From: Acheta domesticus
Taxonomy: Eukaryota; Arthropoda; Insecta; Orthoptera; Gryllidae
DNA: 64,000 nucleotides
NCBI GenBank assembly: GCA_031308135.1
Contig: JAHLJT010008756.1
Location: forward strand, 100,032,510 to 100,096,509
Direction: 5' to 3'
Both the position numbers and the translations under genes were made by a program. Each line of letters starts with the position of its first letter. Within the stretch, counting starts at the first letter, position 1. Under the pieces are notes generated by a model. It did no database searches, was not told where the DNA came from, and worked only from the letters and a program-made list of their open reading frames with translations. Of the stretch, positions 15,101 to 61,500 are shown in pieces.

Positions 15101-18100
15101 TTTCTACCCAACTGATATTCCTCCCATTGATCTGGCCGAACTCAGGCTCTACGCATTTGAAAAGGATATATTGATTTTGGGTGTACTTTACATAAGGCAT
15201 CAATGTTTTCTAAATGATCTCAAAAATGGATCCATTTTTTATTATTTTGTTACTTCGGTTAGGGCCGAAGGACGCTTAAAAATTGCGCAGATCTTCTTTT
15301 CGTTAAATTGACTGAATTTAATTTTTTTAAATTTTAAATAATGGAGAACGTATGTGCTGCTGTTGCATCACTATTTTATATTTTTGACAGACGCCGCCTT
15401 TTATACTTATAATCGTTATGTTTAGGAAAGTTATTAAAGTTTTTTAATTGAATGTATAGCGTAGTTTCTTTCACTTACGACTGAGTTCTCCATAGCATTG
15501 GCTCTGACTGCAGACATTCCGACTAGCTAGGTGGAATTCAGCTGCTGACAGGAGGAGAATTTTAACGACCGGCTACTCTGGACGGTAGTTTTCCGTGATT
15601 TCTCCGATCAACACCAGGCGAATGACGGAGCAATGCCCTAACAATAGGGCCACGGACCGCGCGCAATCTTTACTTCCTCTTTCTTGACTTATCCTCTCCC
15701 CTTATACACACACAGTCCATAATTTCATGGACTACATTACTACACATTTTGCAACACCAGCCAGTAGCCTAGAGCTTGTCCTGACTGGAGCGATGTTCTG
15801 CTTGGGGGAGATGTCTGGAGAGGAAATGCCCCGCAAGCTGACGCGACGTACAGATCGATGTTGAAGTCACTATCCAGTTGGGAAGGCGTCACCACCAACT
15901 CCCGGGAACAAATCACATTTAGGTATTTATGCAGTAGGGCAGCTCCGTGTTAAATGCCATAAGATTTGTTGGTCAGCGACTCTAGCGATCCGCGCGGCGA
16001 TCACGGAATACTACGCCGTCCTACTAAGGGTATCTAGGAGGTAACAGCATTTCTATTAGGAGGTAAAACCAAATATCCGTCTTTCTTTTTTTTTACGTCT
16101 ATTAGACAAGTAAAAAACAACATAACTCAGAGTTCTTTCCTGTATTATTGCTGCATTTAATTACAGAACAGTATGCTCCTTTCGATACATCCATTACTAT
16201 TAATGTGTTAACTGGAAAAGTATAAGGATTTAGTTCGTGCATATCAAATATGTTCCTATACTTTTTAATGTAAGGTTAAAACAGTTCTATTTAATTTTAC
16301 GTGTTATTTAACGACATGCTTCTGAAATCCTAGGAATATAAGAGGTCAAGTTATAATACGAATTATCTTTTACGTTTTTAACCAGCTCTTATAAAAATAA
16401 TTTAACAAACAAATCCGTACAGTTCAATAGCAGCTATCTGTAGTTTTACTTGATCTCCACCAGGAGTGCTAGCTGCATGCGCGTGCAGCCCTAACTAGCC
16501 AAAACACGGGATGAGCTGCGCTACAGTATAAATACTTTCACTCCTCTAAAGGGGACTAAAGACCACATTGTGCCCAGGTCGGCGCCGGATTTCACCATCC
16601 AGTGGGAGAAGATCACAGGCACTTCCAGAGATAAAACATCTACGGAACTAATGACCTTAGCAGTTGACCGCCCGGAATCCCTAATCAACCAAGCAACGAA
16701 GCCTTCCTGTGGCCCCCGTGGGCGTGTGCCCGCAGAGGTCGGCGGACGCGGCGCTGCGCGAGGTGTGGCGGCGGCTGGTGGCGCCGCGCGCGCACGCGCT
16801 GCCCACGTCCTACGTGCAGGGGCTGCGGCGCGCCTGCGCCGGCGCCTACGCCTTCGTGGCGGCCGACGTGACGGCGCTGCCGGCGCTGCCCGCGCTGCCC
16901 TGTGCGCTGCGCCCGGTGCCGCTGCCGCCGCACGCCTTCCCGCTGCTGCCCGCCGGCTGGCTGCTGCGCCCGCGCGCGCCGCTCAACCCGCTCCTCGCCG
17001 CCGGGTCAGTCGACACTTTGCTTACTTGTTTAGCAGTGCACCCGGCAATGCTTCGAACATTCATAAGAGTCAACCACACAGGATCAAACTAGGTATTAAT
17101 TGTAAAAACTTGGCTGTCGAGACGCCGAGACCTAGCCATAAAGGTCATAAAACTTGGTTCTTTAGCAGTGGACCCGGCAATGTTTTGCTAATGGAGAGTC
17201 TTACCTCATCACTGGGGGGGGGGTGATGACCTAAAAAATTGACAAAAATTATCAATCAAATGATCTTAAAATGTTTTTAAAATGACCTAAAACCAAAGGA
17301 AAATGACGTAAAAAATGTTATCAAAACCAGTTTGGGTGAACAACTCAAGCTCGATACGTTACTGATGTAATTGAGGCTTCAATTCGTTCAAGTGCACTCA
17401 GCTTGGAAAATTTTAGTTTGGACTGTTTTTTACCACGAAATCTCTGTCTTAAGTTATTCCGAAATCGTACGAACCGACAATGGCGCTGATAGGCGTCACA
17501 GGAACCTTAGATCACATACAGTGGCTGGCATTTCAATTTCTGAACAAAGGAAGGCTGAGCACTATTAGGCTACTTAAGAATTTTATGGAAAATGTTTGTT
17601 GCATCTCGTAAATATTATTTCAAGCAGGTTCAATTAAAATTATATTAAAATCGCTTTAATCAGCGAAAAGTGCACTAAGTATGACAGGAAAAGGTAAACA
17701 ATTACTTAATCCTCGAAATTGGTGAAAAATGCAAAAAATGACATAAAATATATCGTTTCCTTTTGTCATAACATAAAAGTAATTTATATACGAAAAGGAA
17801 ATGTTCTAAACTCAAAAGGAGAAAATGACATTTCATTAAAGTCCTCCCTTACACACCCCATACTACTGATCACGTGATTGTTAATCACGTTTTACGCTAC
17901 GCTGTGCAAAACCCTAATAGATGTAATAATTTCTCGCAAGTATGGGTTGATTCTATGTCCTGGTTTGTACTTGGTTGTCAAGTGTCCTATCGTTTAAACG
18001 TTCTTTCTCAAATTTGGTCATGCCTTCGCTATGACTATGATCTACTATCTTGGAGAAATATAATTTACTTGTCCGAGATTCAAGTATTCAGAGTATTCCA

Positions 18101-24156: not shown

Positions 24157-24235
24157 GCGCCTGTGGTGACTCACGAGCGGGATACAAGGACCAACGAGCT
24201 AGAAGTGGCTGAAGCGTCGCTGAAGTGGCTACGTA

Positions 24236-24628
24236 AGGTCCGATTAAATTAAGAAGGTGATTGACAGTTCTGTGTGACGTCAGGACGCCTCTCCCGTTTC
24301 CATGGCAGCTGCCAACCAGAGAGACAAAATGTGACGTGTCAGGTCGCTCAGTTGCCACTGCCGAACACGGGGAACATTTGAGCATCGCAAGCGACTTCCC
24401 TGCCACCACGCAGCCCGCGTTTCTGCCTGTGCTGCGCGCCCAATGTGTACTGTGTTGTGATGAGTTGCGTTGAGGTTAGGCTTTTGTCGTATTTTTTAAA
24501 CTTTTACACGTATTTTTTGAAGTGTTTGTTTTCGTGTCCCGGTAACACGTGCTCAGTGGTTTGCGACCTGGCAACGTCGCTCCCCTCCACTCACAAATGT
24601 CAATCACCTTCTTAATTTAATCGGACCT
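24236..24628. mobile_element. MITE with 31-bp inverted repeats and TA flanks
   Basis: AGGTCCGATTAAATTAAGAA, continuing GGTGATTGACA, at the left end is exactly inverted at the right end. The match includes the flanking TA on both sides (33 bp, 24234-24266 and 24598-24630), which fits Tc1/mariner-type TA insertion. The 393-bp element is non-coding and begins 80 bp after the IR stop, so it probably lies in the 3' UTR. Confidence 0.85.
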
Positions 24629-40375: not shown

Positions 40376-40540
40376 TTATATTGATTCTGTGGGGCTTTGG
40401 AATTCACTCAGAGCTTTAATAGGATTCTGCACTTTCTTCTGAGAACCTTTGCGAACCTTGGCCCTCACTTCCTCAGGTTTCTCTGGCCTCACCAATGGCT
40501 TCTTCTCGGGAGCCTTCATCTTCCACACAACAATGGGCGA
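40376..40540 (-). CDS. alpha-Cat: Alpha-catenin last exon, C-terminal tail
   Basis: It follows TTGCTTGCAG in phase 0. It encodes SPIVVWKMKAPEKKPLV, a basic stretch with VRAKVRKGSQKKVQNP, ALSEFQSPTESI and stop TAA (40376-40378). This is the conserved tail of the actin-binding domain. Confidence 0.97.
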   Translation of the reverse strand, partial: SPIVVWKMKAPEKKPLVRPEKPEEVRAKVRKGSQKKVQNPIKALSEFQSPTESI

Positions 40541-43500
40541 CTGCAAGCAAAGCATCAGAAATAATTATCTTCCGAATACATGATGGTGGTAAACTATCTT
40601 CAAAAACTAATTACAAAAATTGAAATAACAATAACAACAATAATATAATAATAAATTTAATCGTATGAATCAGTCATCATTGTGAAAATATTTATTTCCA
40701 CAATTTCCAGAGTTTTATCAACTTGAAATTTCATTTTAAAATCAATTTACACTGGAAAGTATATTTACAATAATACCCAAATTGAGTGTGTTTTAAAAAT
40801 ATATTTTTAGAATACCATCTCAACAAATGTTTGTTCAGGACTCTATGTAGTCATTTTTTAAATTATACCAATTTACAAGATACTTACAGAAACAGTGCCT
40901 TGTCGAGGGTATTTTGTGGATGCTACATATGAACATTTGACAGTTAACACTACAGCATTCATCAAGTTCTTTGCTGCTTGAATGAGTGAAGTAGCACTGT
41001 CCAACTGTAAAGAGCAAATCAAATTGTAAAGAATGAACATCCTTCAATGGCACATATTCACATCGCAAACAAAAACAAATCACCATAATAATAGAATCTA
41101 TCTGTCCCCCAAATATTTCCCTGACATAATAGCCTTTATTAGCACTACAGTACCGGCAGTGCATAAGCAAGTTGACAGTTGAAAGCGCTGTTGCCACACA
41201 TTAGTACGCACATGGCACCACCTACATCACAGATGAATTAAATCTCAAAACATTAACACTAAGTGACAGGCTACAACACATCTTCATATCATGTTCATAA
41301 CTTTTGCCAAATGAATCTCTTTTGAATCTTATCGCCTCGGCGACTTTGCGTATACCAGATGAGCAACAGCGTTGAACCCTGGCTGTAAGAAAGTAAACAA
41401 ATCCTCGCAAGCCAATTGCTCCAGAGCAGGTCACATGATGTACCACAGCACATGGCATCAGTTGCTTACATGCTGCCGGTACTGTAGGTCTTCATAGAAA
41501 ATCTTGGCATTATTCTTACATTTAAGCCCAAAATATTCTTGACATTCACCGATGACAGCGTACACATATCAAGGATAATGTGGATTTAATATCCTACAGA
41601 AAACTCTCAGTTCATTGTCCAATTTAAATTCTGAATAACATTTTTCTTATGATTAAATAAAATCCTAATTTATAATCATATAATCCAAAATTAAACAATG
41701 TGATTACTTGTCATCACAATCAAAAACATTTCTTATTAATTCTTTTAAATAAACTTACTTTAAACATAGTTAAAAAATTACATCAATGCAAAAAATAGTC
41801 TTTGCAAAGTAACATTTAATTTCTTAAGAATACTTCTAGGTTAAAAATGATTGACTCAAGCTTGAGATAGGCTTACTGATAACAATGGCACCATGATCAA
41901 CCATCTACGAAGCACAAACAAACGATTTATTAAAGTTTTTATTACTGAATGAGTGCTGCTACTCTTTCAAAGACTGACAGTTCTGTAAATTTTCTGAAAG
42001 CTTATTAACATGGAATGGGCCTCCACTACATCTTTCTTTTCAGGATCACTTGCCAGAAAAAATGAACCTTTACTTCAAAAGATTATCAAATAATTTGACC
42101 TAGAAATTCATCCAGAAAATTTGACAAAAAAGACGTAATTTAGAAAGGATTACTCAACAATAAGCCACTAATAACAGTATTTTAAATGTACTCTCCTATT
42201 ATTTTAAATGTACCAAATGATATTACGTATGCTATAATGCTATTAAGTATCTTCTAAATGCTATTGCTACATACCCCAGAAACAATAAGCTCTCCACTGA
42301 TGTTCTGAACATCTGCTTTTACTTTAGAAGTAATGTTCATTTGATGACAATACAGGGCAATTCTCTGCAAATAGGCCAAAAGATCTTTCTTTGTAGAAGA
42401 TTCTGGACATTGATCAGCAATCTGCCTTGTTAATTTATCAAGTTTTGTTCCAGCTTCAGATATCTTCTTAGCAGCATTAATAACATCCATTGTCGTTTTC
42501 AAAGGACCCCGACCTCTAAAAGAAGAAATTTCCATATTAGTTGAATTCATTGGAACATGTTAACTACCACACATTCTTCCATATTAGTTAAATTTTGTAA
42601 ATTATTATATCCGATAGGTTGTTCCACAGCACATTTACATAAAAATGTATCTCAGTAAATGATATTTACCGAGTAAAGTCTGTCATTTCCATCATTATCA
42701 TGCACATATGCTTAGCAAGAACAATGATGTCGTTTCCAGTGTCATCCCATTTTGCCACCTCACGGTCAAACTTCAGTTTCTCACTGCGGAAATACTCCAC
42801 TTGTTGAGCAATTTTCTGCTTATCTTCCTCTGTCATTTTTCTCATAGCCTCCTACAGAAATAAAAGATAATGACACAAAATGCCCCAATAACAGTATTAA
42901 CAATATATTATTAAGGGATATTATAAAGAGAATATCCCATAAACAAAAAAATACACAAATATTTACAAAATAAATTTAGAACGTTTATATAAAAAAACAT
43001 TAACACACACACACTAAATACATAGCTATTCAGAATAAATACCTGATAAATGACATAATATGCCAATAAATGACAACAAACTAGGCATTCCATATTGTAA
43101 ATTGGACATTCTGCTTACCCTTGCTGTAGTAATTCCACTAATATCAGGATATTCATCAACACCGTGTTCTCCAGTGTGTGCACTCGCTGAAACATACAAC
43201 ATTAACTTATTACAACATTTGATAATTTCTTTGTAAATATTATTATAAATACTTAATGATTTTGAATTCAATTTATACCAAATAATTACTTTAAACTTAT
43301 GAAAAATCAATGGTAACATTCTACAAATTTTCATGATTTCATTACTACAAATTTTTATTCATGACTATGTGAAACAGTATTAATAACTATTTTCCATTGT
43401 TTGTGGTTTTAACAATACTTAATATTTATTTTAATAACTAAAGCTACAAATTCATGTTTTCAATTTCTTTTCTTTCTTAATAAAATTTCCTTTTATATAT

Positions 43501-46500
43501 ATTACTTGCCCCTCTTTAAATTTATTTGCAATTACATAATTACGTGCTATTTACCACAACCAACTCAAAACAAATATTGTTTATTTTTATTCACCTTAAT
43601 ATAATAGTAAATAATGGTGTTTTAAGCATACAACTAACAAATTTCTGAAGTACATTAAGCATCATATAAGAAATTTGGACAAAATTTTCACCAAACTGGC
43701 AAGGTTATACTGAAATAAAATGCATTTCTTTTAAATGCAAAAAAGATATTTATTCCAATTATTGAAGCCGAATGCTTCAGTAAGACAACCGTTACCAGGC
43801 TCTGCCCTTATGTCTGTTTTGTGGCCTTACATCTGCTCCTGGTATCGATCGTCTGCTCCTCCGCGGGTTCAAACTCTGTATCAGTGTCGAGCTCTTCAGA
43901 ACTCTGAAAACATTGGCCACAACACACATCTTACTTCTACGAAAGGATAGTCCCAGCACTACAACATACTTAGTGGTTCAAATAAATAATTCACATCCAA
44001 TACCCTCTATTAAATTTTTTAACAACTGAAAGGGTACTTTGTTTGTGGGTTTCTTTCATTCTTTCTTTTTTTAAAGAACATGACCAACGAATATTTCACA
44101 AATTTTCAACCAAAGACATAAATTCCAGTCCCAAGAATGTACAGATGAACCACTCAGTTTGCTGAAATGCTGTTTTCCAGTGAGCCGTGCTTACATTTGC
44201 TCCTGGTCTCTATGGTGTAATGCTCATCAAACTCAACATCCTCAGGGTCCAGTTCCTCATCCGTCTGAAGAGAAAACAAGAGCAGGTTAGTCCCTCCCCA
44301 CATGCGACAGGTCAACCAGATGCCCAAGGACCCAACCTTGAGCAGCTGGCAAACACGCACTGCCCTTGCCTGAGTAAACTTCACCAATTCATTCACACAA
44401 TACAAGGGTAAATTGCAAATGCAGAAATTTTGAGAATAATCTTTTTTTTCTCTTAAGAACAAGAAAAGGGTGGTTTTCAGAAGTTGCAAATAGTCTGGTG
44501 TATGACCTTCACTGATGCTTTAGAATGGATGTTGCATCATTTATGTGTATAGAATGTTATAGAGATACTATTTTGTGTATCTATTAACAATTATTAAGGG
44601 TTATGTAACAAGAGAGAATTTTTTTCGTACTCCAGCACTAAACATTCTTTACCAGAGAATAAACTATTTTATATCAGACAAAAGGAAAATAAATGTTACA
44701 AAGGACACAGGCAAGCGCTTTGTTCATTAGTTGTTACAAGAAGCCCAACACCAGTCTACAATATGATTTCAAAATATATCACCTCTCCCTTCTTCAAAAA
44801 CAAAATACATTCAAAATAATTCATAAAAAGATTGCACTTGGGAACTTTGGTAAGAAGCATTTGCCAGTCAATTCTCCATTAGATTTCCAAGATTCTAATA
44901 CACTTTGGGAACTTTGGTAAGAAGCATTTGCCAGTCAATTCTCCATTAGATTTCCAAGATTCTAATACACTAATATCACAATTAATGAGGAGCACCTCAA
45001 TTGTTTTATAAGTTTCTGAAATTTACAAAATGTGAATACAACTGCACTCTTAATTAAAGCTATCAGTAAAGTAGGTTTCAAAGTGTTCTATTATAATGCA
45101 GACTATTATAGTATCTTTATTGGCAACAAAAATTAAATCTGATTTAATTGCATCCCTTTCCTTGCATTTGTTTCAATGCTAGGTATTTTTCATCTTCAGA
45201 AAAAACAACCTAATTGATTGTGATTACACTGACAACTGACTTCTAAAATTTTCTGACAATAGCTAGATTTTCCTCTCACTACAAGCATGCTTTTAACCCT
45301 GGCCAATTCCGTATGTCCCACCACAAAATTATCTAACCAGTCATCCTTCACCTTACACACAGTCAATGCATTTGGAATGAATCTTGGCAAATCACCTTCA
45401 ATTTTCGAACTGAAAATTAATAAGTAGAATGAAATTTGGAACAGAAGTTTCAATACTGAACTTCAAAATAACAAGAGGTGTTATATTGAAATAACATGAA
45501 AATTAAATCAAATCAAAAAAATTAAATCAATTAAATTTTAGTGGAAGAGAACATTTTGATTTATCCTTGAAATAGCACTTTGAAATAAATGAAAATTACC
45601 AATTAACTATTGCAAACCATTTACTATTATTGGAATTTTCTCAGAAATACATAACACATGATAAATTTAATTACAAAAACAGTTGGTTTTTTTAACGTAA
45701 ATCCACATAAATTATCACTAACATAATAAAGATTTTAAATTGAATTCCACATTAAGGAGAATTAAATGTACACTACTAACTCACTTAAAAAGTGTAACTC
45801 AATGAGATTTTTCACTATTTCTAAAATACTCTGCCATAAACCACTAGCTGGAATCAATTCTGTGTTAAATGCTACGTATACATACCACATGCCAGTGAAA
45901 GCAGTATCTTACCCTATTCATGAGGACAGCACGACGTATTTCACGAACACCATCATACACAAGCCGTGATGCATCTATGAACTCATTTTCATCTACATCC
46001 TTAGGGGGATTAGAAGAAAGGGCATCAACAGCTACTTCCACACGCTGTGCAAAGTTGGGCATTACTGTAAAAGGAAATATTTAATAAAATTTTGTCTTAA
46101 TCACAAATGTACAATAAAAATAATGATAATTCTTAAATGGAAAAACATTTTGAGAAAATACAAGCAAATTTCAATGATTCCCCATGAATTGTAAAAGAAA
46201 ATGTGAAATGTTGAGAGAATATATATACAAAATAAAATTAGGAACATAAATGATATTTTGTATACTTGTTAGGACACCAATTCCTAATGTTTGGACAAAA
46301 AGCCCTTTGCGTTTTGTACAGCATTACAATACATCCTCTCCTGTATTATTTCAGTAGCATAGATGACTTTTGCGGCTCTCACAATCGATCTTTCAATGAA
46401 GTCTCTAGCTACTGAAGAGAATTTCACAGACTTGATGAAAAGCACTTTAATTTAAAAAATATGAAAGATTTGTTGGGAAAAAAAGAGAGAAAAAAACAAA

Positions 46501-49500
46501 TTGAAATATTTATGTCAAAGGCAACTAACAACACCTGTGCAACGTAGTTGAAATCTATAGTTATATAACTCCAAAACTAGGAAAGGTAAAAAACCCTGGA
46601 AATTTGAAGCCAAAGGCCTCAATGAAATGTTCCCCACACCATAATTTAGAGGATGAGATCTTCTGGGGCATTTTATTACATTTTTGCTGTTTCGGTGCTT
46701 CTTGATACTTTGTTGCAGTGCAGTTTTAAACATAACAAAGAGTAGGGTTGTACTTGCTCAATCTTGTATTTTCAACGTGGACTACTTTATGTAGCTTTCT
46801 CAAAAGCAAAAAGCTTTTCTAATATTTTTGTGATTACCAAGGAAAGTGAAAAGCAAACCGCCAAGGAAAAGTGTATAGTTTTTTCAAATGTTGTTTTAAG
46901 GAAGAGTATTAAGTACTTAAGACATCTGTCTGTAGTACTTAGTGAACCTTTACTGAAAATTTGTTTCAAATATCAATTACATTGTTTTTCATTATTATTT
47001 GACATTCTGTAAGTACTTGGAAGAATACAATAGAAGTTACCTTCACTCATTTCATAAACAAGTGAGCATGTTTCTTTAACAACTTTCCCCTTAATATGGA
47101 AATGGAAGGATAGGTAAGAGGGAGGGGTTTAACATGTGGCGGGAGTTCTCTCACGGGTACTTTAGTTGTAATTAATACAATAGACAAAGAATCCTGTATG
47201 CAATAGAGCCCTCTCATATTTGGAGGATAGGAAAGATTAAGAGGGTGGGTCATTTAGAAGGGGACTCGCAAAGATGAATATTTTGTGTTTTAAGTTACCC
47301 TTAGGTAAAAACATTTCAAAAAATTTTAATTGTTCATGAAACTAACATTTCATTGTATCTGTGTCTGAGATTCTACATTTTTCATTTTCTACAAAGATAA
47401 AATTGTGGTGCCATAGAATGGCATACTCTTCCTTGCACTAGTTTTCTAATCTCTCTAGTCTAGGCTAGCTTTTTGCTATTCCCCCCCAGCTGCTACCTAT
47501 TGGCACCAAAACAACATTTTTTCACATTTTCTCAATTTTATGGTCATCTAATAGAATTGAAATATGTCTTTAAGACATATTTCAATTCTACCATTCAGGC
47601 ATCTTTCAGGCATTAAATAATACAGAAGAATAAAATGTAATCCTGTATGAATATTTTCATTGCAAAATTTGGAGTCATTCTTAAGAAAATGTTGTTTGAG
47701 CATTTCTGAAACTGCGCAAGTTGAAGCTCATTTTCAAAGAAGTTTTGAGTCTTTGAGAAACTTCAAAAGAAGTCATTTGAAGTAATTGGGTTCACAAATA
47801 CATGAACATATAGAAAATGCCCCTAATGCAAATATTGATGTGAGAGATAAATTTTGAAAAAATTACCTTACTGCAGTTCTTGAAAAATCAATGTATGTCA
47901 TGTAATTTAGAGTACATAGCATTATCCATACAAAAAGTTTAAAGAAAAAATTTGGAGACATTTTTGAGAAAATGTTGTTCTAGCTTTTCCGAAAATGAGC
48001 AACTTTAAGCTCATTTTTACTGAAAACTTGAGTTTTCAAGAAATTTCACAAGAACCCATTTGAAGTACACATACTCACAAATTCATACATATATATGTGT
48101 AATTTTTAAAACACCTAAAAAATACATCAAAATGGCGTTTATGTGATGTTATTCTCTGCATAAAGCCCTACCCATAAAAAAAGTTTTAACAAAAAATTTG
48201 GAGTCATTTTTTTAAAAAATTCTGTTTTTAAAATTGTCTTTATTTCACCCATGATCACTCAAAAACTTGTACTCAAATTTTGAAAAATGTGTATGTCTTC
48301 AATTAAAGATGTAATTTTGAAGAAAAGGGTTTATTCAGAGGAAAAATCTCTCTTCAATATTGTAGTGGGACACCAACAAAATTTTGAACTTTTGCAATTT
48401 TCAAAAATTCAGCTATTTCAACAAAACTGAGACTTGCACCATTTGTTTACACAAACTATTATTCTATCTGAGGACAAAGTGTTATCAAGAAATTTGGAAT
48501 CATTTTTGCAAAAAATATGAAAATATTCTAGAGGCTTCATGAAGTGTACCCCCCAAAAATTAAAACATCACTTTCATTAGAAAGTAATGGCTCCTTGAAT
48601 TATCAAGGAGCCATTACATCAGCCACGTCAATTAGGGAATATCAATTTAGATGAAAATTCTAATTATGGTTTAGCCATTAGTGTTGTTCACATACAGACG
48701 AACAGACAGATAAACAGATGGACAGACATTTTGGGGCAAAACCAATTTTTTGGGATCAAAGACCCACAAAACATGGATTCTGGTACACATTTGAGGAAAT
48801 AATTTACTACATAAAGCAAAGAGAATTATCAAATTTTTGGGTATTAGGGATCAACAATATAAACTTTTCTGCCAAAAAATTGCTGGCTTTCAGCAGCTTT
48901 ACAAACATTCTCTATACTACATATGTAGTATGCAAGAAAGTTAAAAACTACCCAAACACAAAAATTTCTGAAATTTAATCTTTACAAAACCTCCATTCTA
49001 TTGCAATTAAAAAGAATGCTAACAAAGCAGCGTCTTACCTTGGTCTCTCAAGACTTTCACTGCCTCTAACACTCGCTCAGTGTATATGCCTGGCTCATAG
49101 TTGTCCATCTCAGCTCCCACAACATTGCACACTCTTGATGATCGCCCTCTAATGGCTCCTGCAGTGCGATCCAGTGTATCTGCATCACCTTCTTGGAGGG
49201 CCAACACACATTTGTTCACATCTTCTAGTATATGGTTTTCTGTGGAAAATTAACAATGCTAAGTACCTATAATCTCTATAACTACTCATACCCATATATT
49301 GTAGGATGTAGCTATTAAATAAAAAGGTCTAGAGTACATTGCGAAAAGAATTCCAAGTCTTATCATGAACAAATGAAGAAAAAGTTTTTTAAATTAGCTT
49401 CAACCAGAAAATAAATTTTCCTAAAAGCGTCATAGCTAAATTTTTAGTAAAGGTCCTTTTCATTTTCTATGATACATCACTAACTTGTGGTGTTGTTGTT

Positions 49501-52500
49501 GTTATTATTGTTATTATAGCTCAGATTTCTAAGCTTTAATACTCATTCCTTTTCACACTTCAAAAGACGTGCAATAAAGTTATTTAAAGAAAAAAAAACA
49601 CTTTGACAAGCAATTTTAACCTCATTTGAAAATGCTAATAAATGCTTGGTTTCACAGAATTTTACCTTGCTTGCAATTTAAGATTGAATTGAAAAATTTT
49701 ACTCAACTCTGACATATTTAATGTGCAAATTTCACTTCTAGCTGTCATCACTGATTCCATTACCTTTTTCTTTATCAGCTGATAAAAAGTTTACTTAAAT
49801 GCGTAAAAGAACAAAGCTTGGATATGAATGCAGAAGGGGAAGTTTCAGCGTGTTCAGAATAGTAAACTTCTGAAGTTGTGAAATTATCTAATGTATAATT
49901 GATTTATTTGTGTAACCAATTATTCCAACATTCATTCATGCCACACCAAATTGGGGAACATAGTCAAAAAAGCGTAACAGAGAGTAACAAAGAGTAACAT
50001 GCAGAAATGATTCACATTTATTTCACAAAAATGACCAAACTTCTGCTGGGCCCATTGTAGTTCCTATTATTTTGTAATTCCACTAATGGGATAATATTTG
50101 CAAGAAAATAATTTACTTTCATTATGTTGTAATTCGAGAATACTGCCATTCAAAATGTTCTCTACAAGACATATTACATCCATGTATAATTTGACATTTA
50201 ATGATAATTTTCACTGCACTTCAGTGACAGGCAAAGAAATGTCATATAGGAAAATATCAAATGACCTTCCTAGTGTGTAGCTACAGTTTTGAAAAAGGTA
50301 AGAGTACCATTACAGTTTTTAATGAGATTTTTATGGAACAAATAATTTATACAATATCTGTGAATTTGTTTTCACTTATTTTAAAGCTTGAGTATCCATT
50401 TTTGTGCTTATTTTTTTGCCTTTTATTTTATCATTTAAAAGTGCTTATAAAAATTTGAGCTCTAGAAATTTAACTATAAAATGAATTTAAAAAAATAGTT
50501 TTAACAACTATTGTTAATTCAAACCAAATATCTATTAATAACTTTATCTCCTTAATACCTACCAGATACAGCAAGGAAGTCATCAATAGTCGTTATGTCA
50601 TCAACAGCCTCGGTCAAAATGCGGACTTGATTCTCCCAGGCATCACGGAAAACATCCATGTTCTCTTGGGCAACTTTGGAACGAGGTCGAGCAGCCAAGA
50701 TACGGGCAGCATTGATCACTTGTGGGCACAAGTTCTCTATTTGAGCAGCTGCATATCGAACCATTTTCACACCATCTTCATTTCCCGACATACTACAAGC
50801 CAAGTTAGCAACCTGTTCACAAGAAATGGAAATAACACTGTTACAAACAAACTATTCAATACTGACAGTAATGATGTGACAAAAATGTATCCTACAAATA
50901 TGAGTCAAATTTTTGTTATTCACATAATACATGTTTATCCTGGGAACCTACAAAGCAGCATTTTTGAGTTATGTACAATTGATGCATCAGGAAACAACCC
51001 ATTGAGCGAGTTGTTTGCATTGCGTTTCACATTTGGACTTGCCCAATTCAAACACACATTTTCAACAAATCCTCAATATTTATAATATCACAATGCTATT
51101 CATTACCTCTCTTTCTTTTGACTATTCATCTGTTAAAATTGGTTGGATGTGAAAGCTGCAGAGGACATCTACACCATGAAAATAACATACACAATGATAA
51201 CACAAGTGCTACAACAGCACATACTTTTTCACATTTAAGTAACGTTCTGTAACTTCTATCCTAGTAACACTTTGAGCCATCCCTAAATAAAACTCCTACC
51301 CAAACAAAGCATGAAAGGTTTTGAAAAAGATCTTCAATTTTTTGAAAATTCAATGGTATAATGCAAATGTTTTTCAGCCATTGAATTCAGCTTATTATAT
51401 TCTTTCCTTAAAAAGATGAAAGTAACCAAAAAATTACTTACTTAGATTTCTGAGTCTGGTGAGTAAGACTTGCCTATTTGGTATTATGCTAGTCAGGCCT
51501 ACAAAGTGATACAGAGTAATTGTGGAACTTAACAAATTTCTCATGATTTATTTCCAGTATTATTTACTCCAGAACTATTAATATTTCAAAATAATGTTCA
51601 CAATATGATTGAAAGGTCTAATAGTGAGGAATATAATGCATGAAGAAAACACAACCAACTTCAATAGTGAAACTAGAGGTCAAGTTCAATTTAAAAAAAT
51701 GAACTTTTGCCATATTTAATTTCCAGAGGACTATGGCATTTTATTAAGCACACCATGCTTAATTCTAGAAACAATTTGAATGATTTTTGAGAAAACTTCA
51801 GAAAATGTCCCAGGGGCTTCGGATTAATTACCTTTAAAAATTAAAAAATCGGTTTCAAATTTGAGGGGCTGTGAAATTATCCAGATCGATCAGGGATATC
51901 TGCTGTTTTGGTAAACATTATGTGCCCGGTTTATGCAATAGTGCAGGTGGGCAAAAAGACAAATTTTGCAAAAAAGCACTTCGTCAGTATCAAGGACTTC
52001 CAAAATGTGTTTTCTTTGACATTACTTATATGAAAAAGTGATATACTACGTACAGAAAAGTTAAATAACCATTTCAAAATACCATCAGGTGTTTTTCTGT
52101 CAATATCAACACATTTTTCTGCAGCATTAAATAATAATTAATAAATAATATCCTGATTTCTTACCGAGTTTTAGAGACATTAAAAGGAAAGAGTCAAATG
52201 ATCATTTATTACTGAGAGAAACAAATACAAATCTAATGAGAATATGGACCTTACCTCCACCAATTTATTAGCATGTTCTGTGAATACCAATGCGTATTCT
52301 TCAACTTCCTTCTCATTGCCAGCTTTAGCAGCTTCAATGAGTACCAATAAAGGTACGTTTGTCTCTAAGAAACTGTAAAATAGTAAACATCACAGAGATT
52401 ATACACACAAGCATATATAATACAATTGCTGAATGTTCATAGAGACTAGTTTTCTAAAAACAAATTTGCAAAATTGAATTTCAAAAAGAGAGCATAAAAT

Positions 52501-55500
52501 GGGCGGTTGCATCTTGTTTATGTTAAGAGTCTGCAGTTTGCAAAGCTAAATTTATTTAATGAAGTAAAAAATTGTATGCTATTAACTATTATAAAGTAAT
52601 GTGGTAGCACCCTGGTACCCTTATCCGACATACAAAAAAAGGTCTTGAAAAGATTATTGAAAACCCATTTTGTATTCAATTAACGATTTATTCAAATAAA
52701 ACAAGAATATACCAATCAAGAAGTTTTACATTGAAACGGCTTTAATGGTAAACTTTCCCATAATCCAAAGTGAATACAGAGAGCTTTGGCTGAACAAGAG
52801 ATGTCCTATTTTACCTCCTTTGCAGGTGAATAAGCAACTAGCAAAAACTAGTTATAGATGTGTTAGTAGAAAGGCTTTTGATGTATTAAGTTCTGATTTG
52901 AAAAATTGGGATTCTACCAGTTCTAAATTCAGGAAACTATTGAGATCCCGACTCATTGAACTTGATAATGATGTAATTAAGGCATTTATTCAATTTTCAT
53001 AAAAATATGTAAACAAATATTTGATAGTTACGAGAGCATTACTCTCTTATATTCTGTATGCCCTGTTTGTTATTTTATTACTATCTTTCTTCTATAAAGA
53101 TGATGTTTTACTTTATTTGAATGTTACTTAGTTTTGTATGGTTATTTCAGGGTCACACACAGGATCTCTTGTTGTCGCGAATAATCTTTGTGTAATTTTT
53201 TGTTATACAAAAATATCTGAGGCAGGGAAAAAGAGGACAGGAAACAATAGTGTGCTGTTCACTACGGGATGAACAATAGATAACAATAACAGAAAGATAG
53301 CAGTTTATTTAGCTTACATTTTGGGATAGCAATGTCTTATTAATAATGGTGTAAAAATCAGTTCTCAAAAGTTTGCTTATTGCCAAAAATTATTATATTA
53401 AAATGTAATATAATAATATTTAGAATTTTGTCTAAAGGACTCTTGTGAGAGAGCAACAGAAGGGTGTGAAACAAATCAATCAATAATTACAATAAACCGT
53501 TGTCCTCAAAATTGGATTAAATATTATTTAATTTCTTTTTGTGGACAGTGAAATAAATGTTGGGCCAAAATCATCAAAGAAAAAGGAACTGACCTAAATT
53601 ACCAGTGGTCATTCACTCAATGGACATCGATTCACTTAACTACAGTATCTTCTTGTATGCTCGTGCATGAGAAAGAAGCTCAGAAGAGCTGCATAGCAGT
53701 TGCATAACTATTTTGGAACTCATTTCTTACACTACATTATTATAGTGGAATGAAGAAAGTCAAAGGATTTGAGGTGTTTTGACTTGGCCTGGGCGATGTA
53801 AACGCAAGTCCATCCTGTTCAGCTCAAATTTGTATTAAACTAATTTTAATGCTTATATATCTAAGCAATCTAATTTGTGACAGTAATGTTGTTCTTCTCC
53901 ATAAGTCATACCAAGTTTTTAATGTTCTTTGACATAATAAATCAAATCTGGTATGGATCCTAACCAAATGAACAATAATGCTATGCTACCAGTTAAATTT
54001 AACCAGCCCTTGTCAGACAGTTAACTGCTTCATGTTCTCAGGATCCGATAAAACTTCCAGAAGACCAAAACTTACCATTCTTTAACTACACAAAAATTGA
54101 TCAATGGAAACAACATTGGACTCTGACAACCATTTCTCAAACCTTTGCTCACCTGTCAGACACATGGTCCACAACAGCCTTCCGTAGCTGCCGGCGCAAG
54201 TCACGTGTTTTGCGGCACATATGGTCCAGGGCACGCTCCAATCCTTCACTCTGCTCCTTTGTGCCCATCTGAAAATATTATTATACAAGTGAATTCCTCA
54301 CATCCAACAAACACCACATGCAACAACACACACTGGCCACTACAGAAACCAGAGTGAACTAGCCACACAGACAGCAAGCCACAGCACATAGTGCAATTAC
54401 TTCAAAACACTCAATTCAGTGCACTCCATTAATCAGTATTTTACATAGTGCTTCAAAGTCTCTTTGAGAAAAGTCTCATTTTCCACTACACAACACACAC
54501 CAAAGTAGAAATTTTCAAAACTGAAAATAAAACAAATTCCATGGACTTCATCAAGTAATTTACATTTTCCTCAAAGAGAAACATGTTTGTCACAGTGTTT
54601 TTAAAATAATGTTGTTAAGTTATATTGCCTTGAATCATCACAAAGCCATTCACATGGTCATTAATACTGAACCCTCTCAACAAGGTTTGATTATTACAAA
54701 ATGACCATATCCATTTTGGTTACAAAGTACTATTGTACTGAAAGCATTTTCTCAAGTATGATTTAATAATTTATCATTTCAGCCTGGATGACATTGGATC
54801 GAAACATTTTCCATAGCAGAAGATATTCAATACAATGGTAACTTTTATTACAAATTAAGAAAAGAGAGCAATAACTCTGATTACTTCCCATACACATGTA
54901 CACACGCCAACTCCATGTGCAGCTTGTTGTGTCGCAAATATCTAGAGCAGGGGTCTTCAACCTACTTTTACCTAAAGGGTCACTTTCTTTTGGAAGAGAC
55001 GCTAGATGGTCACACTGATTTATTAATAGGTTACTTAAGTAACACAAATATATAATTATAATACAAAACCTGTAAGGTTTACTTAACATTACAGGGCCTA
55101 CATGTAAATGTTTTATATTTTGTCTTCCTCTTTGGAATGTTAATGAATAACACAAAGCACATTAACATTCTTAAATTTAAAGGAAGGCTTGACACTTTGT
55201 TTTTGTCACTAAATTGCTTACACAGGTGTTAATGTTGGAAGAAATTCAAAAGCAGTTCTCTAAAAGAGCATCAGAAAGTATGTTCCTTAGTTTTGACTTC
55301 ACGATATTCATCTTTGAGAAAAGTGGCTCACATAAGTATATGAACCAAAAAGTGATGTGTGTACAGAGTATGTGAAATTGCTGGAAATTTCTTTTTCAAT
55401 ATATTTTGAGGATAACTCCAAAATTTCTACATTCTTAAATTTCTCCTTTAAATTACTGTTATGCTACAATTCAATACATAAAAATAAGTTGAAAATGAAT

Positions 55501-58500
55501 AGACAAAGAATACAATTTTATCTTTTCCTTTACCTGAGAAAAGGGTTGCACTGCAATTAAAAATGAGTATTTATATGGGTGTCATCAAAAATGAAGCTTG
55601 GGGCTGCCGGTTAAAGACAGCTGATCTAGAGTACGAATGTAAGTAATGTTCTTTTTGAGAAAAATGTACAAATTATTTTGGTTACAATAATGGGTTATCA
55701 GAAAATTCCCTTTTTCAGTTTCCATCATCTCAAACAGACTTTGGTTAGTACAGGAGGAAACTAGGAGAACAGCATCAGTTAGCATAAAACAGGATACACC
55801 AATGCTGTTAGAACAAAGCAAGACAGTGGCACCATTTAGCTGGCCTGGCTGAACACACTTGACTACTCTATTAATTGGGACACAAACATGGACAATCTGT
55901 GACAGTGACAGGTGGCCATACAGCATCCACAGAAAAAAAGCACTGTACAATGAAGCCTCAGTCCTGAACCTTGTTCACTTCAAAAGTGAACCAAATGCAA
56001 ACCTCCAAAATGAAGTGATGAAACAATCATAAGAAATGATGGATAACTTAAGTGATTATTAAGTCACTTCCACAAAACTAATGGTTTCAGTTTAAAATAC
56101 AAAGCATAATATATATTCTTTGAACATAAATCCTTGTAGAAGTCAATAGTTTATGATACAAATACAGCACTTTAATCATTACTCCAATTCATTTTTGCAC
56201 AAGTGATTAACATCCTTCTCATGGGGCAGAGCACTTAATGAAACAAATAGGGTGCTCAATTACTCAAACTTCTCTTCAATTAATAAGATAATTTTGAAAA
56301 ATTAAGCAAAATTTTGGTATTTAAAGCTAATTGCAATGAATCTACCTAAAAGTGTTTCTCTGATATTTATTTTAATTTTAAAAAAATGTAGGTTGCTGTT
56401 CCAGCTCTCAACAAAGTAATTATTTGCATTATTCATTTCACATACAGGATTCCAAGCTTGTTCCCAACAAAACTAAAAAATGTAAATTTTTATTTCAGAC
56501 AAAGCATTTGAAAATGAGAACATGTACAAACTCAGTGAAATACAAATAAGCTTTTGTTTATCACAAAGAACAGATAAAATAATTTCTGAGCCAGGAGAGA
56601 GGCCAAACTGTAAAGCTCAATTAAGTCAGTGAGTTTTGAAGATTGCTAATCATGCAAGTGGAAATGATATCAAGGAATCTGTGAGACATTTACATTTCTA
56701 CAAACCTCAGGAACTGTACATGAATATACACAGTGAGAAACATTGCTAAAAAATTTGACAGGTTTAGAACCAGATTTACAAATCAATGTTTCAAACCAAT
56801 ACAGAAGTTGTAATATTTTACACTGATCTCTGAGATATTCTGATTTACTTTCATACACATTATATTTGAACAATGTTGGGTATTTAAAGAAAATTATGTA
56901 AAAATAAATAAATTGTATATGCTTTCTAACCTTAAAAAAGCAGAATGACAATAATTAACGTACTATTTACAAGTTTCTCAATTCCAAGAGAACAATAAAA
57001 TGTATAAGATTATCTTCGCTTTTAAAACTGACCTAAATCAAAAACACAGTCTGTAAGTTAATTATATTTAATCAGGAATATCTCTGAGAAGAATAATGTG
57101 AATAACATGTCCAACACAGAATGACGAAAGTGGAAGGATAACTACAGCTCCAGCAAGGCATCTATGTCTGCCAAGAGAAATGGAGAAGTTCACATTAGAC
57201 TTTAGATGGAGCAGAAAAGAGCAGTGACTCAAGAGCCTAAAGTGCTACACACTCACACGCACACACTCATATTTACCCGATCCCCACGCTTGCCACCACG
57301 GCCACCTTGCAGCTGAGGACAAACAGAAGCAGTGAGTAAGAGACAGTCCATAGCCCAGGGGTTGGTCACAATGGTGTCAGAGTAACAGTCTACTCAACTC
57401 CAGGAGTGACAGCAATTCCAAATTCAAATTCCTATTTACAAAACTTCCAAAAAATTCCAAACACAATAGGCACTAAAAAGTACCATTTCCTTTTCAAATA
57501 TATACATGGGAATGTTTACACAAAACAACTTTTAAAGGTCACAGTGTTTAAAAAAACATTCAAATCACATTTATTAACATATGCTGGGCACAACCAATCC
57601 TGGAGCCAAGTAAAGAAAAAAGGTAAAAAAACTTGAAACTAAATATTCGGTGATAGAAAATTATTTTTGTTAACATATTAATTCACATGTAGTGCACAGT
57701 GCACTTCCTTGTAATGCGTAGAATGGCAACATGTAATTCTCTGGTACATAATTCTGAGAAATGACACATTACACATCCTTCAAATATCTCTCCAATAAAC
57801 ATAGTAAATTGATGATTTAATTATAAACTTAAGGTAACACAATAAATGTAGAATACTTTCTCATTGTACACAACTTTCAAGATTACATTATATTACATGA
57901 TAACTTTCATCTCAAAATCCATACACACTACGGAAAATGTGGTAGGGCACATTATTTAAAGCACACTTCGATGAACTCAATAACTCAAATTTGGAGACTT
58001 GCATGATGATATTTATTGATGGTACTACTTCAATATAAGCAAAAGCTTCATGTTCAGCAAATATAAGAAAGTTCAAGTTTCAATTAAAATCTAATTTTAA
58101 TGATTTTAAACAAAAACAAAATGATACAAATTAAAACAAAAAAAATACGGAGCCAACCAATTTTAATAATGCAACTAGGCAGGCAGGGTCCAGTGGACTC
58201 AGGAGTGTCAGCGACAGAATTATGCTTGCAGATGTACTTTTTGGGCATGGCTAATAGAACAGAACATTAACATAGAAGTTTAATTTAAAAACCTTTCAAA
58301 ATACTCTACATTTGTTTCTGAAACATTCTTACTTTTATTATAGATCGCATACACTGTTTATCTGGGTATGTTCATTACAGACAAGTTTTGATCAGATACT
58401 ACATTTCTTTGTTTTCTACTTTGTTCCCAAGGGCATATATGACAGTTTTTGGCATTGCTATAATTTTTCTGAGTTGTAGAATCTGCTCCTCTCCCGATAA

Positions 58501-61500
58501 CATATGCGATTGACAGGCTACACTTGTTATTCAATTATGTTGATTGACACCTTACATTTTCTTTACAAACCAAATTCTTTGCAATATCAACAATAAGTAA
58601 TCATATGATCTCATATTTTCTACCATTCAATTAGGGTCAGCAACACACCTATCGCTGTGCAGTTGTCTCGTAACACCTTGACCACACTACTTCAAAAACT
58701 CACTGTCTCGACACTTGGCTACATACTAACCCCATGCTGTCGACGAAGGCATCGTTCTTAGAATGGCGCAGTGTCAGATAACATCCTGACAAAAAGACAT
58801 TGCACAACTCAACATACATACATCCCTTGGACACAAAGCAATCAAGAAATTGACCAAACAAAACCAGAAAATGCAATGTTACATGCAGATTAAGCGACCT
58901 TGGTCCAATGGACCCCGCTTGCCCAGTTGCGGATGAAAAAAGATAAAGATTTTTTAATTTATTATTCAGTAACGCTTTCATAAAATGGTTACAGATTCAT
59001 TTAAAACACATCATAGCAAACAATGTCACAAAAAGCTACCCTAACATCTTTGATAATTTGCACGTACGATATTGAAAATTTTGCATCTGGGTCCAATGAC
59101 CTCGGTTGCCCGCATAAGGGTTAAGGGTTTTTGAAAATATACCATATTTTGGTTGAAAATATACCATTGAAGTTGGTTCAACCTGTACATACTAAATTTT
59201 TTTAAAACTTCGTAAGAGGACATTTATAGCTCATATTTATCAAAATCATAAGTACAGAAATAAACCCCAAGATTAAATGTGAGGGACACAGAAAAGATAA
59301 AATAAAAACAAACATTTGTAACATTTAAAAGGTCAAAGATTTTCACACAATAAAACTTGTAGTACAACAGAAACTTAAGTTCTCAAGGAGACACTGCACC
59401 CCAGGCAGAGTTGGCAATAATTTGATTGTCAATCCATGTCTGTCATCTTGAGGGCTAAATAACTTGATGTTGCATTATTTTTCAGAGAGCGAGAGAGCGC
59501 GATACACAACTCCAGGGATGTTTTACAAACTGATTTGGACATTGGGAGAGAATATGGTGGGAGGAAGCTCATTAATGAGTTTTAACAAAATTGTTATAAA
59601 TGTTAAATTATTTATTTGGAAAAAAGGCTAATTATTTGTAGTTAGTTGCCATCAATTCAAAAAACATCAGTTTTAATTAACAGAACTTCCAGCGATCGCA
59701 ATTCTGTACAGATTTGCACGTTTACATACAACAGGTAAGAAGATAGCATGTTGTATGTTGAAACCTATCAGCAAATAGAAAAAGAATCAAAATAACATTT
59801 CAGTATATAAGCAAATTTATCAGCATAGCAGGGCAAAGAAATGATAACATATTTATAGATCAATATTATACGAGTTTCAATAGCGTACCCAAGCAGGAAA
59901 TCATTTATAAACAAAAATAGTGAAATCCATTCTTTGATCAAATATTATTAGGAGAATATTATAAGTATATTTATCATTATATATAAAAGAGGGGGTATTT
60001 CACACAGACGAACCATATTTGCTTGTGTATAAACCATACTTTTTTCTCACAGTAACTCGTGAAATGGAGGTGCGGCTTATACAGGAGATTTTTCTTAAAA
60101 AAGATCATTGTAAGAAATAGAAAATTGTATGCCGAAAACAAACATTAATTTATCACAAATGCACACAGTATATAAGTTGACGTTAAATTTAATCTTCTTC
60201 GTTCACCCCCCGATTCAATTTAACTTGCACAATGGCTGCCAACATTCCATAACACATCGTCCTCACTCCCATCCATCGTGTTAGAAATGTCAACAAAAGA
60301 AAAACTTTTCACCACTTCAGAAGTCAGGTGGTATTGCATTGTCACACTGCCTCAGTTGTTCTCAGTTGGAATTAATGAAGTGTTGCACTCTGATGGATAC
60401 ACATAAACAGCCAATCAAATTTGGTATGGCACTCCCCCCTCCAATTTCACATTAAGGATTTACCTATTTTTTTAAAAATAAATACATATTTTTTTATTAT
60501 AAAATTTACTGAGCAACATTAAATTATTCAGTGCAACCTATATGAGACTTTTTTTTTATTGTGACATAGATCATTAGTGCACCTTATACACGGACACGGC
60601 TTATACACAAACAAATACAGTATTTCATATGAAATTTTTAAACGACTCTTCCCTTGATATAACGGTAAAATAGTTTAATATTGTTGATATGATTAAACCA
60701 AAATTTGGTTAATATATTAAAAACAATCTCTGCCTATGAGAAAATATGTATGATTCAAACTTTTGATGATGTAAGGGTTGGTTATAATCGGTTGAATACT
60801 GTTCATATGTTTAAACCAATTTTTTTGTAATTAGATTAATATCAATCCTTGTCTACCTAAAAGTATATTATATGATTTAAACTTTTTTTTGATGTTAGAG
60901 CAAAATAAGTTTAATATTGATGATCTGTCTAAATCAAAGTTTTGTTATAATTTTATAAATAATCCTTGTTTATGTAAAAGAATGTTACGTAAGATCTAAT
61001 TTTTTGTTGATGTAATTGTGGTCACTAATGGCCAAGTAGTTCAAAAGGGACCTAAAATAAATAAAATTTTTAAATAAATGCCTGATAATAAAATTACAGG
61101 AGATCTAAGATGCAAGACATGATAAAAGTCTATATTCGAGTGAAGCTGTCTTTGAGGTGCAGGAAAATTTTATTTCATTAAGGTATCTGTCTACTCAAAA
61201 GTGATCAAGAATGATGGGAAAAGGTATTTTTGTTTTTTTGCTATTCTGAAAGTGTCATTTATTACACTTTCTTGTGGTGAAATCCATTTTTTCGTATCTG
61301 CAATATTTTCAGAGATACAATAATTGTTTTCAAGATTCCATCGCCGCTACGCATCCTTGGATCTGTCAACGCCTCCATGTAATTGCAAATTTAAAAGAAA
61401 GCATTAGCTATTCAACAAAAAACCAGAAAACACCAAACCACCAACAAAGCAGGAAAATGTACTTTTGAGGAAATAAAAAGAAGGGAAAGGAAAAGATGTA

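Follow-up and report, generated by a model that had tools for sequence, protein, structure and literature searches.

A tandem exon pair in alpha-catenin predicts two distinct insect linkers between the M-domain and the actin-binding domain

The stretch of DNA analysed here, called the window throughout, comprises 64,000 nucleotides of the genome of the cricket Acheta domesticus (assembly GCA_031308135.1, contig JAHLJT010008756.1, positions 100,032,510 to 100,096,509). Its minus strand carries the 3' part of an alpha-catenin gene, within which two adjacent short exons, proximal (e8p) and distal (e8d), stand as alternatives between constant neighbours. The features are as follows, in window coordinates.

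40376..64000, minus strand: alpha-catenin gene, 3' part; 14 exons counting both alternatives, with the stop codon ending at 40376
45913..46064, minus strand: constant exon e7, the upstream neighbour, ending ...AVLMNR on a codon boundary
44195..44264, minus strand: proximal alternative exon e8p, 70 nt, encoding TDEELDPEDVEFDEHYTIETRSK plus 1 nt
43904..44194, minus strand: intron between e8p and e8d in the gene model, 291 nt
43831..43903, minus strand: distal alternative exon e8d, 73 nt, encoding SSEELDTDTEFEPAEEQTIDTRSR plus 1 nt
43119..43186, minus strand: constant exon e9, the downstream neighbour, encoding SAHTGEHGVDEYPDISGITTAR and holding the second and third CK1-type sites

Alpha-catenin is a central force-bearing link of cell junctions. 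The window gene is assigned to it, and with it to the vinculin superfamily, by orthology along the protein. The partial protein containing the proximal exon is identical to Gryllus proteins P0002 and P0016 at 645 of 646 residues, and the partial protein containing the distal exon is identical to Gryllus P0030 at 646 of 647. The 5' coding exons lie just past the end of the window, adjacent to it, and match the Gryllus protein. When the whole 2.33-Gb source genome was searched with Gryllus alpha-catenin, 17 of the 20 matches fell at this locus. The remaining three, at 32-36% identity, are on two other contigs (G000 C2935 and C5460) and probably come from other vinculin-superfamily genes of the cricket, an identification that is a guess.

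Both alternative exons are entered in phase 0 and left in phase 1; their acceptors are AG and their donors GTAAG, and the splice positions proposed in a preliminary description of this DNA (45913, 44195, 43831 and 43119) are all exon ends in the gene model. With e8p alone or e8d alone the window part of the gene is open to its stop codon (647 and 648 codons, respectively). Joining the two creates a TAG at the junction (AAA T|AG), its T supplied by the final base of e8p and its AG by the start of e8d, and omitting both shifts the frame to a stop within e10. The peptides encoded by the two exons align with a BLOSUM62 score of 47. As a reference for this score, both strands of the window yielded 928 open AG...GT intervals that are 61-85 nt long and share these phases; the best of them not overlapping e8p or e8d scores 6, so the resemblance between the two exons is beyond chance. 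A tblastn search of the window with the peptides of all 14 exons, at E up to 1, recovered each exon itself and the cross-match between e8p and e8d (E 0.34 and 0.067); the eight weak extra matches consist of seven on the plus strand and a partial one on the minus strand (e12). Neither the interval scoring nor tblastn revealed a third copy of the exon, or a clear duplicate of any other exon, in the window. Length, phases, splice sites and homology, the features by which mutually exclusive exons born of tandem duplication are recognised (PMC3228551, as set out in part of that paper), are all as expected in e8p and e8d. The two exons are a homologous tandem pair of which exactly one is needed for an intact alpha-catenin. 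The preliminary description had already presented them as adjacent homologous exons of 70 and 73 nt with the same phases and good splice sites, the inclusion of both or neither breaking the frame, and the gene model, the score of 47 against 6, the junction TAG and the shifted frame stopping in e10 confirm it on each point.

The distribution of the pair was followed in three protein searches, of which the best 120 of 1491, 225 and 677 matches were listed, giving 268 distinct proteins. As the queries were cricket proteins and one arthropod protein, the counts describe close relatives rather than all animals. Sorted by core motif, 136 of the listed homologues are proximal only, 127 distal only, five contain both types and none contains neither. 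One database protein thus carries one type in 263 of the 268 matches listed, and the other five are Lepidoptera models with both. These five (P0121, P0123, P0124, P0125 and P0158) have intron-like residues between the two exons and probably reflect misannotation to which the exon pair gave rise; the proximal exon precedes the distal one in each, so that the exon order is as in the cricket.

At least 13 species have both types as separate proteins among the matches listed. They are Gryllus bimaculatus, Periplaneta americana, Halyomorpha halys and Cimex lectularius; Papilio machaon, Papilio xuthus, Pieris napi, Manduca sexta and Helicoverpa armigera among Lepidoptera; and Calliphora vicina, Episyrphus balteatus, Eupeodes corollae and Cochliomyia hominivorax among Diptera. 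In 11 of these 13 species the two types carry different isoform labels under the name 'catenin alpha' and agree in the length of their longest contig. In all nine pairs from Lepidoptera and Diptera the distal protein is the longer by one residue, which agrees with the prediction from exons of 73 and 70 nt. The two types of Periplaneta come from contigs that differ in length, and for both Periplaneta and G. bimaculatus the proximal entries are gene models in which inserts stand ahead of the exon. The peptide of e8p recurs unchanged in proteins of Schistocerca (P0001), Gryllus longicercus (P0002) and Zootermopsis (P0003), and that of e8d in P0030 and P0031 of G. bimaculatus. Absence of the proximal copy from all relatives had been held out earlier as grounds against the pair; locust, termite and another cricket have it. 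Further afield, proximal-type linkers are present in springtails and barnacles. Mosquito entries that have no contigs and are named 'putative alpha-catenin', which we take to be transcriptome submissions, are of the proximal type in Anopheles braziliensis and of the distal type in Anopheles marajoara.

Some groups show a single type among the matches listed. The named beetle and Hymenoptera proteins among these matches are all proximal. In P0100, closest to beetle proteins, the proximal donor runs straight into e9 through a stretch of 102 nt, which cannot accommodate a distal exon plus introns; in this sequence the distal exon is therefore lacking where it would be expected. The named Drosophila proteins among the matches listed are all distal, for example P0215 (SSEDLDTDTEFEPVEDLTLETRSRS), and no named Drosophila protein of the proximal type occurs among the best 120 of 1491 and the best 120 of 677 matches to proximal-type queries. 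These groups indicate, as far as the matches listed go, that one type, proximal in beetles and Hymenoptera and distal in Drosophila, may suffice.

The two types do not grade into one another. When the linkers of the 13 species and the window were compared (14 rows, several of them close kin or identical, so that the comparisons are not independent), the lowest score between two proximal linkers was 79 and the lowest between two distal linkers 53; the highest score between a proximal and a distal linker, within or between species, was 51. Judged from the protein sequences, the pair is old and both types have been kept distinct across insects, as two distinct linker types and not two drifting copies. 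Similarity to the human linker (scores of 30 and 29) does not tell which copy is ancestral.

The vertebrate counterpart of this linker is a known target of kinases. In the parts of two reports on which we draw (PMC12393524, PMC11744050), the vertebrate alpha-catenin linker is phosphorylated by CK2 at S641 and then by CK1 at S652, S655 and T658. Modification of the CK1 sites increases at mitosis and is actomyosin-dependent, and junction enrichment and M-domain accessibility are greater with a phospho-mimic linker. The logic of this two-kinase relay is called a puzzle in a 2025 preprint, in the portion cited (PMC12393524). The insect exons occupy the same site as the vertebrate alpha-E-catenin linker, between the M-domain and the actin-binding domain, and S641 falls in the core of both. 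The preliminary description had equated the cricket linker with the phosphorylated one of vertebrate alpha-E-catenin, and that equation is borne out, S641 being carried by this linker. The difference is that insects have two exons, with and without core acceptors; the string 'splic' occurs 0 times in the main text of PMC12393524.

Residues were counted in 64 distinct proximal linkers (from 131 proteins) and 23 distinct distal linkers (from 127 proteins), leaving out 10 of the 268 proteins from which no single linker could be delimited by script: the five with two exons, four with inserts and one with a changed anchor. The motifs used for sorting span positions 5-10 and 5-12, so that constancy there is partly built in, and none of the 268 proteins lies outside both motifs. 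Proximal linkers have no Ser or Thr at positions 2-15 (0 of 64), Pro7 in 64 of 64 and acidic residues at positions 8 and 9 in 64 of 64. Distal linkers have Thr7 and Thr9 in 23 of 23, in agreement with the two Thr that had been noticed in the acidic core (LDTDTEFE) of the cricket exon. The distal linker of Periplaneta americana P0068 retains LDTDTEFE and has a diverged CK1 region (TYSTSSRPSAQT), unlike most distal linkers. The three CK1 places hold Ser or Thr in 62, 63 and 63 of the 64 proximal linkers and in 20, 23 and 23 of the 23 distal linkers. By these counts both exon types keep the putative CK1 triplet S-xx-S-xx-T, and a predicted acceptor of the CK2 type, located in the core at S641 or next to it, is present in the distal type and absent from the proximal type. 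In the cricket itself, [ST]xx[DE] motifs of the CK2 type number three in the distal linker and one in the proximal, the latter at its first residue (TDEE).

How the cores correspond in detail was examined by several alignments. Human numbering, counted in chain 9dva_F from residue 583, puts S641 within DDSDFE. HMMER and pairwise alignment pair human S641 with distal Thr9; when 88 linkers were aligned jointly, in three ways, its column holds distal Asp8, which lies between Thr7 and Thr9. The proximal type has Glu in that column in 61 of 64 linkers and Asp in the other 3, and pairwise alignment to the human linker likewise sets proximal Glu8 opposite S641. The insect CK1 triplet matches human S652/S655/T658. 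When the two cricket exons are aligned with each other, Thr7 lies opposite Pro7 in the DNA and joint alignments and opposite Glu8 in the pairwise protein alignment, and Thr9 lies opposite Val10 (DNA and pairwise protein) or a gap (joint). The preliminary description had set the two distal Thr against Pro and Asp of the proximal exon: the first match stands in the DNA and joint alignments and gives way to Glu8 in the pairwise one, and the second, Thr9 with Asp9, appears in no alignment. The residue matched to S641 depends on the alignment, and the match of acid for acceptor depends on it too. That an acid replaces the kinase site would thus hold against the human linker and fail against the distal exon. 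What is firm, on the residues predicted, is that the proximal core is without an acceptor.

The proximal linker had been called already acidic, and it does have an acid in the human S641 column in 64 of 64 cases, but it is hardly more acidic than the distal one; the cricket linkers contain 10 and 9 acidic residues (D/E), respectively. As acidity is almost equal, the case rests on the acceptors and their position.

Our preferred reading, held with only slightly better than even confidence, is that splicing chooses between a CK2-dependent and a CK2-independent alpha-catenin linker. Each transcript would include either e8p or e8d; transcripts with both or neither would carry early stops and would probably be removed by nonsense-mediated decay. 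Which exon is chosen would then determine how the alpha-catenin linker joins the relay of CK2 followed by CK1. The distal form would offer CK2 two invariant Thr (7 and 9), the predicted acceptors, in the region of human S641. The proximal form, with P-[E/D]-[D/E]-[V/I]-E and no core Ser or Thr, would be CK2-independent, perhaps in effect already primed, and its CK1 triplet would stay available. Splicing could in this way set the starting state of the linker, with tension or the cell cycle governing the CK1 step. The preliminary description had gone further and proposed that a kinase-regulated linker is swapped for a fixed acidic one. The consistent difference in core acceptors upholds the swap, but the proximal form is not a fixed linker, since it keeps the CK1 triplet and a conserved Tyr (Tyr16 in 58 of 64), besides Thr17 in 55 of 64 and the TDEE of the cricket. 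A broader proposition is that insects have long possessed a splice-encoded natural bypass of the CK2 step, one exon needing the kinase and the other not, by which tissues preset the mechanics of their junctions; this is possible, and we regard it as doubtful.

The two exons might instead be functionally equivalent, with selection maintaining the ability to express them separately in different tissues or stages, which is what has been reported for N-cadherin. Arthropod N-cadherin resembles the present case in that a gene of the cadherin-catenin complex has paired alternative exons, kept across arthropods with a loss in the honeybee, and differs in that its exons encode extracellular and transmembrane parts, whereas the alpha-catenin pair encodes a cytoplasmic linker (PMC2655722, as described in part of that paper). 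Either isoform of N-cadherin exon 13 rescues lethality and the exons have been kept for >400 million years, according to the same part of that source (PMC2655722), and the groups that show one alpha-catenin type among the matches listed are as equivalence would have it. However, it is in the phosphorylation core that e8p and e8d differ, and no intermediate between the types occurs among the 64 + 23 distinct linkers, bearing in mind that part of this core lies within the sorting motifs. We consider equivalence rather unlikely.

A second alternative is that the proximal linker constitutes a binding motif of another kind (LDP[ED][DE][VI]E[LF]DE.Y) or a site for a Tyr kinase, so that the swap alters the partner or the class of kinase and does not mimic the CK2 step. 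Proximal position 10 is hydrophobic in 64 of 64 linkers (Val or Ile) and position 12 in 57 of 64 (Leu or Phe), and Tyr16 is conserved as noted above; the distal column matching it holds Met, Leu or Gln in 23 of 23. The conservation of these three residues suggests a binding motif or control through Tyr as much as a phospho-mimic, and Thr9 lies opposite Val10 in the direct alignments of the two exons. Against a binding motif, we know of no partner for the proximal sequence. This alternative is, in our estimate, unlikely. It is very improbable that the proximal copy is a relic or unused exon in crickets: its splice sites are intact, locust, termite and a second cricket share its peptide, and the core is conserved across the 64 distinct linkers. 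A relic or chance exon was rejected on the chance test (47 versus 6) and on residue conservation.

If the choice is indeed between CK2-dependent and CK2-independent linkers, a conserved pair that keeps the CK1 sites, with or without CK2-core acceptors, would be a natural separation of the two steps of the relay, and the CK2-bypass pair would offer a ready-made system for asking why two kinases are used in the relay. The named fly proteins among the matches listed resemble the cricket distal form, which suggests that work on Drosophila alpha-Catenin may reveal only one of the two linkers present in many insects. The exon pair of alpha-catenin is not described in the literature searched (full-text searches, read as titles and the starts of abstracts, most subscription papers lying outside this scope), and the word 'catenin' is absent from the main text, the part consulted, of papers on insect and fly mutually exclusive exons. 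Within that literature the earlier impression that the pair had not been described therefore stands, although public protein databases already contain both types of isoform under numbered names.

How one exon is chosen may be sought in the introns. Three elements, all on the minus strand, are candidates.

44265..44394, minus strand: GC-rich (52% GC) intron end upstream of e8p; candidate splicing-control element with a putative function
43915..43922, minus strand: tentative candidate stem arm TTGTGGCC, upstream of e8d, on weak evidence
43819..43826, minus strand: tentative candidate stem arm GGCCACAA, beside the e8d donor, on weak evidence; pairing of the two arms would enclose e8d

Steric exclusion of neighbouring splice sites needs very short introns. 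With 291 nt between e8p and e8d, plain steric exclusion is unlikely in the cricket. The GC content of 44265..44394 (52%) equals the highest value among 130-nt windows taken every 5 nt, the whole intron having 31.7% GC. Within this region, at 44369-44265, use of an upstream acceptor (TTTACTCAG) would lengthen e8p in frame by 35 residues. Translated, these 105 nt share 33 of 35 residues with an insert in P0016, a gene model of Gryllus bimaculatus; the match may reflect constraint or just the close kinship of the two crickets. The stretch may represent a third variant of the linker, an error of gene prediction, or a control region that is conserved and has been read as protein.

Evidence for RNA structure is at most suggestive. 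A first scan of intron pairings gave scores equalled in 0, 0 and 1 of 40 shuffles, which mixed GC-rich and AT-rich stretches. With local shuffles, and in this one genome, two of six intron pairings were equalled in 2 of 100 shuffles each and the other four in 28, 30, 39 and 83 of 100. Folds around e8d and e8p are unremarkable, with z-scores of -1.42 each, 20 of 200 and 14 of 200 shuffles being as good. Competing RNA structure around e8d as the selector is offered as a lead only.

Two minor observations concern the surrounding DNA. The intron upstream of e8p contains, at 44838-44971, a perfect tandem duplication (67-bp unit, 2.0 copies, 100% match) that looks recent. Elsewhere in the window, open stretches of 203-243 codons at 7339-7950, 16495-17226 and 23789-24475 have low-complexity Ala/Arg/Gly translations and are possibly GC-rich exons or islands of another gene.
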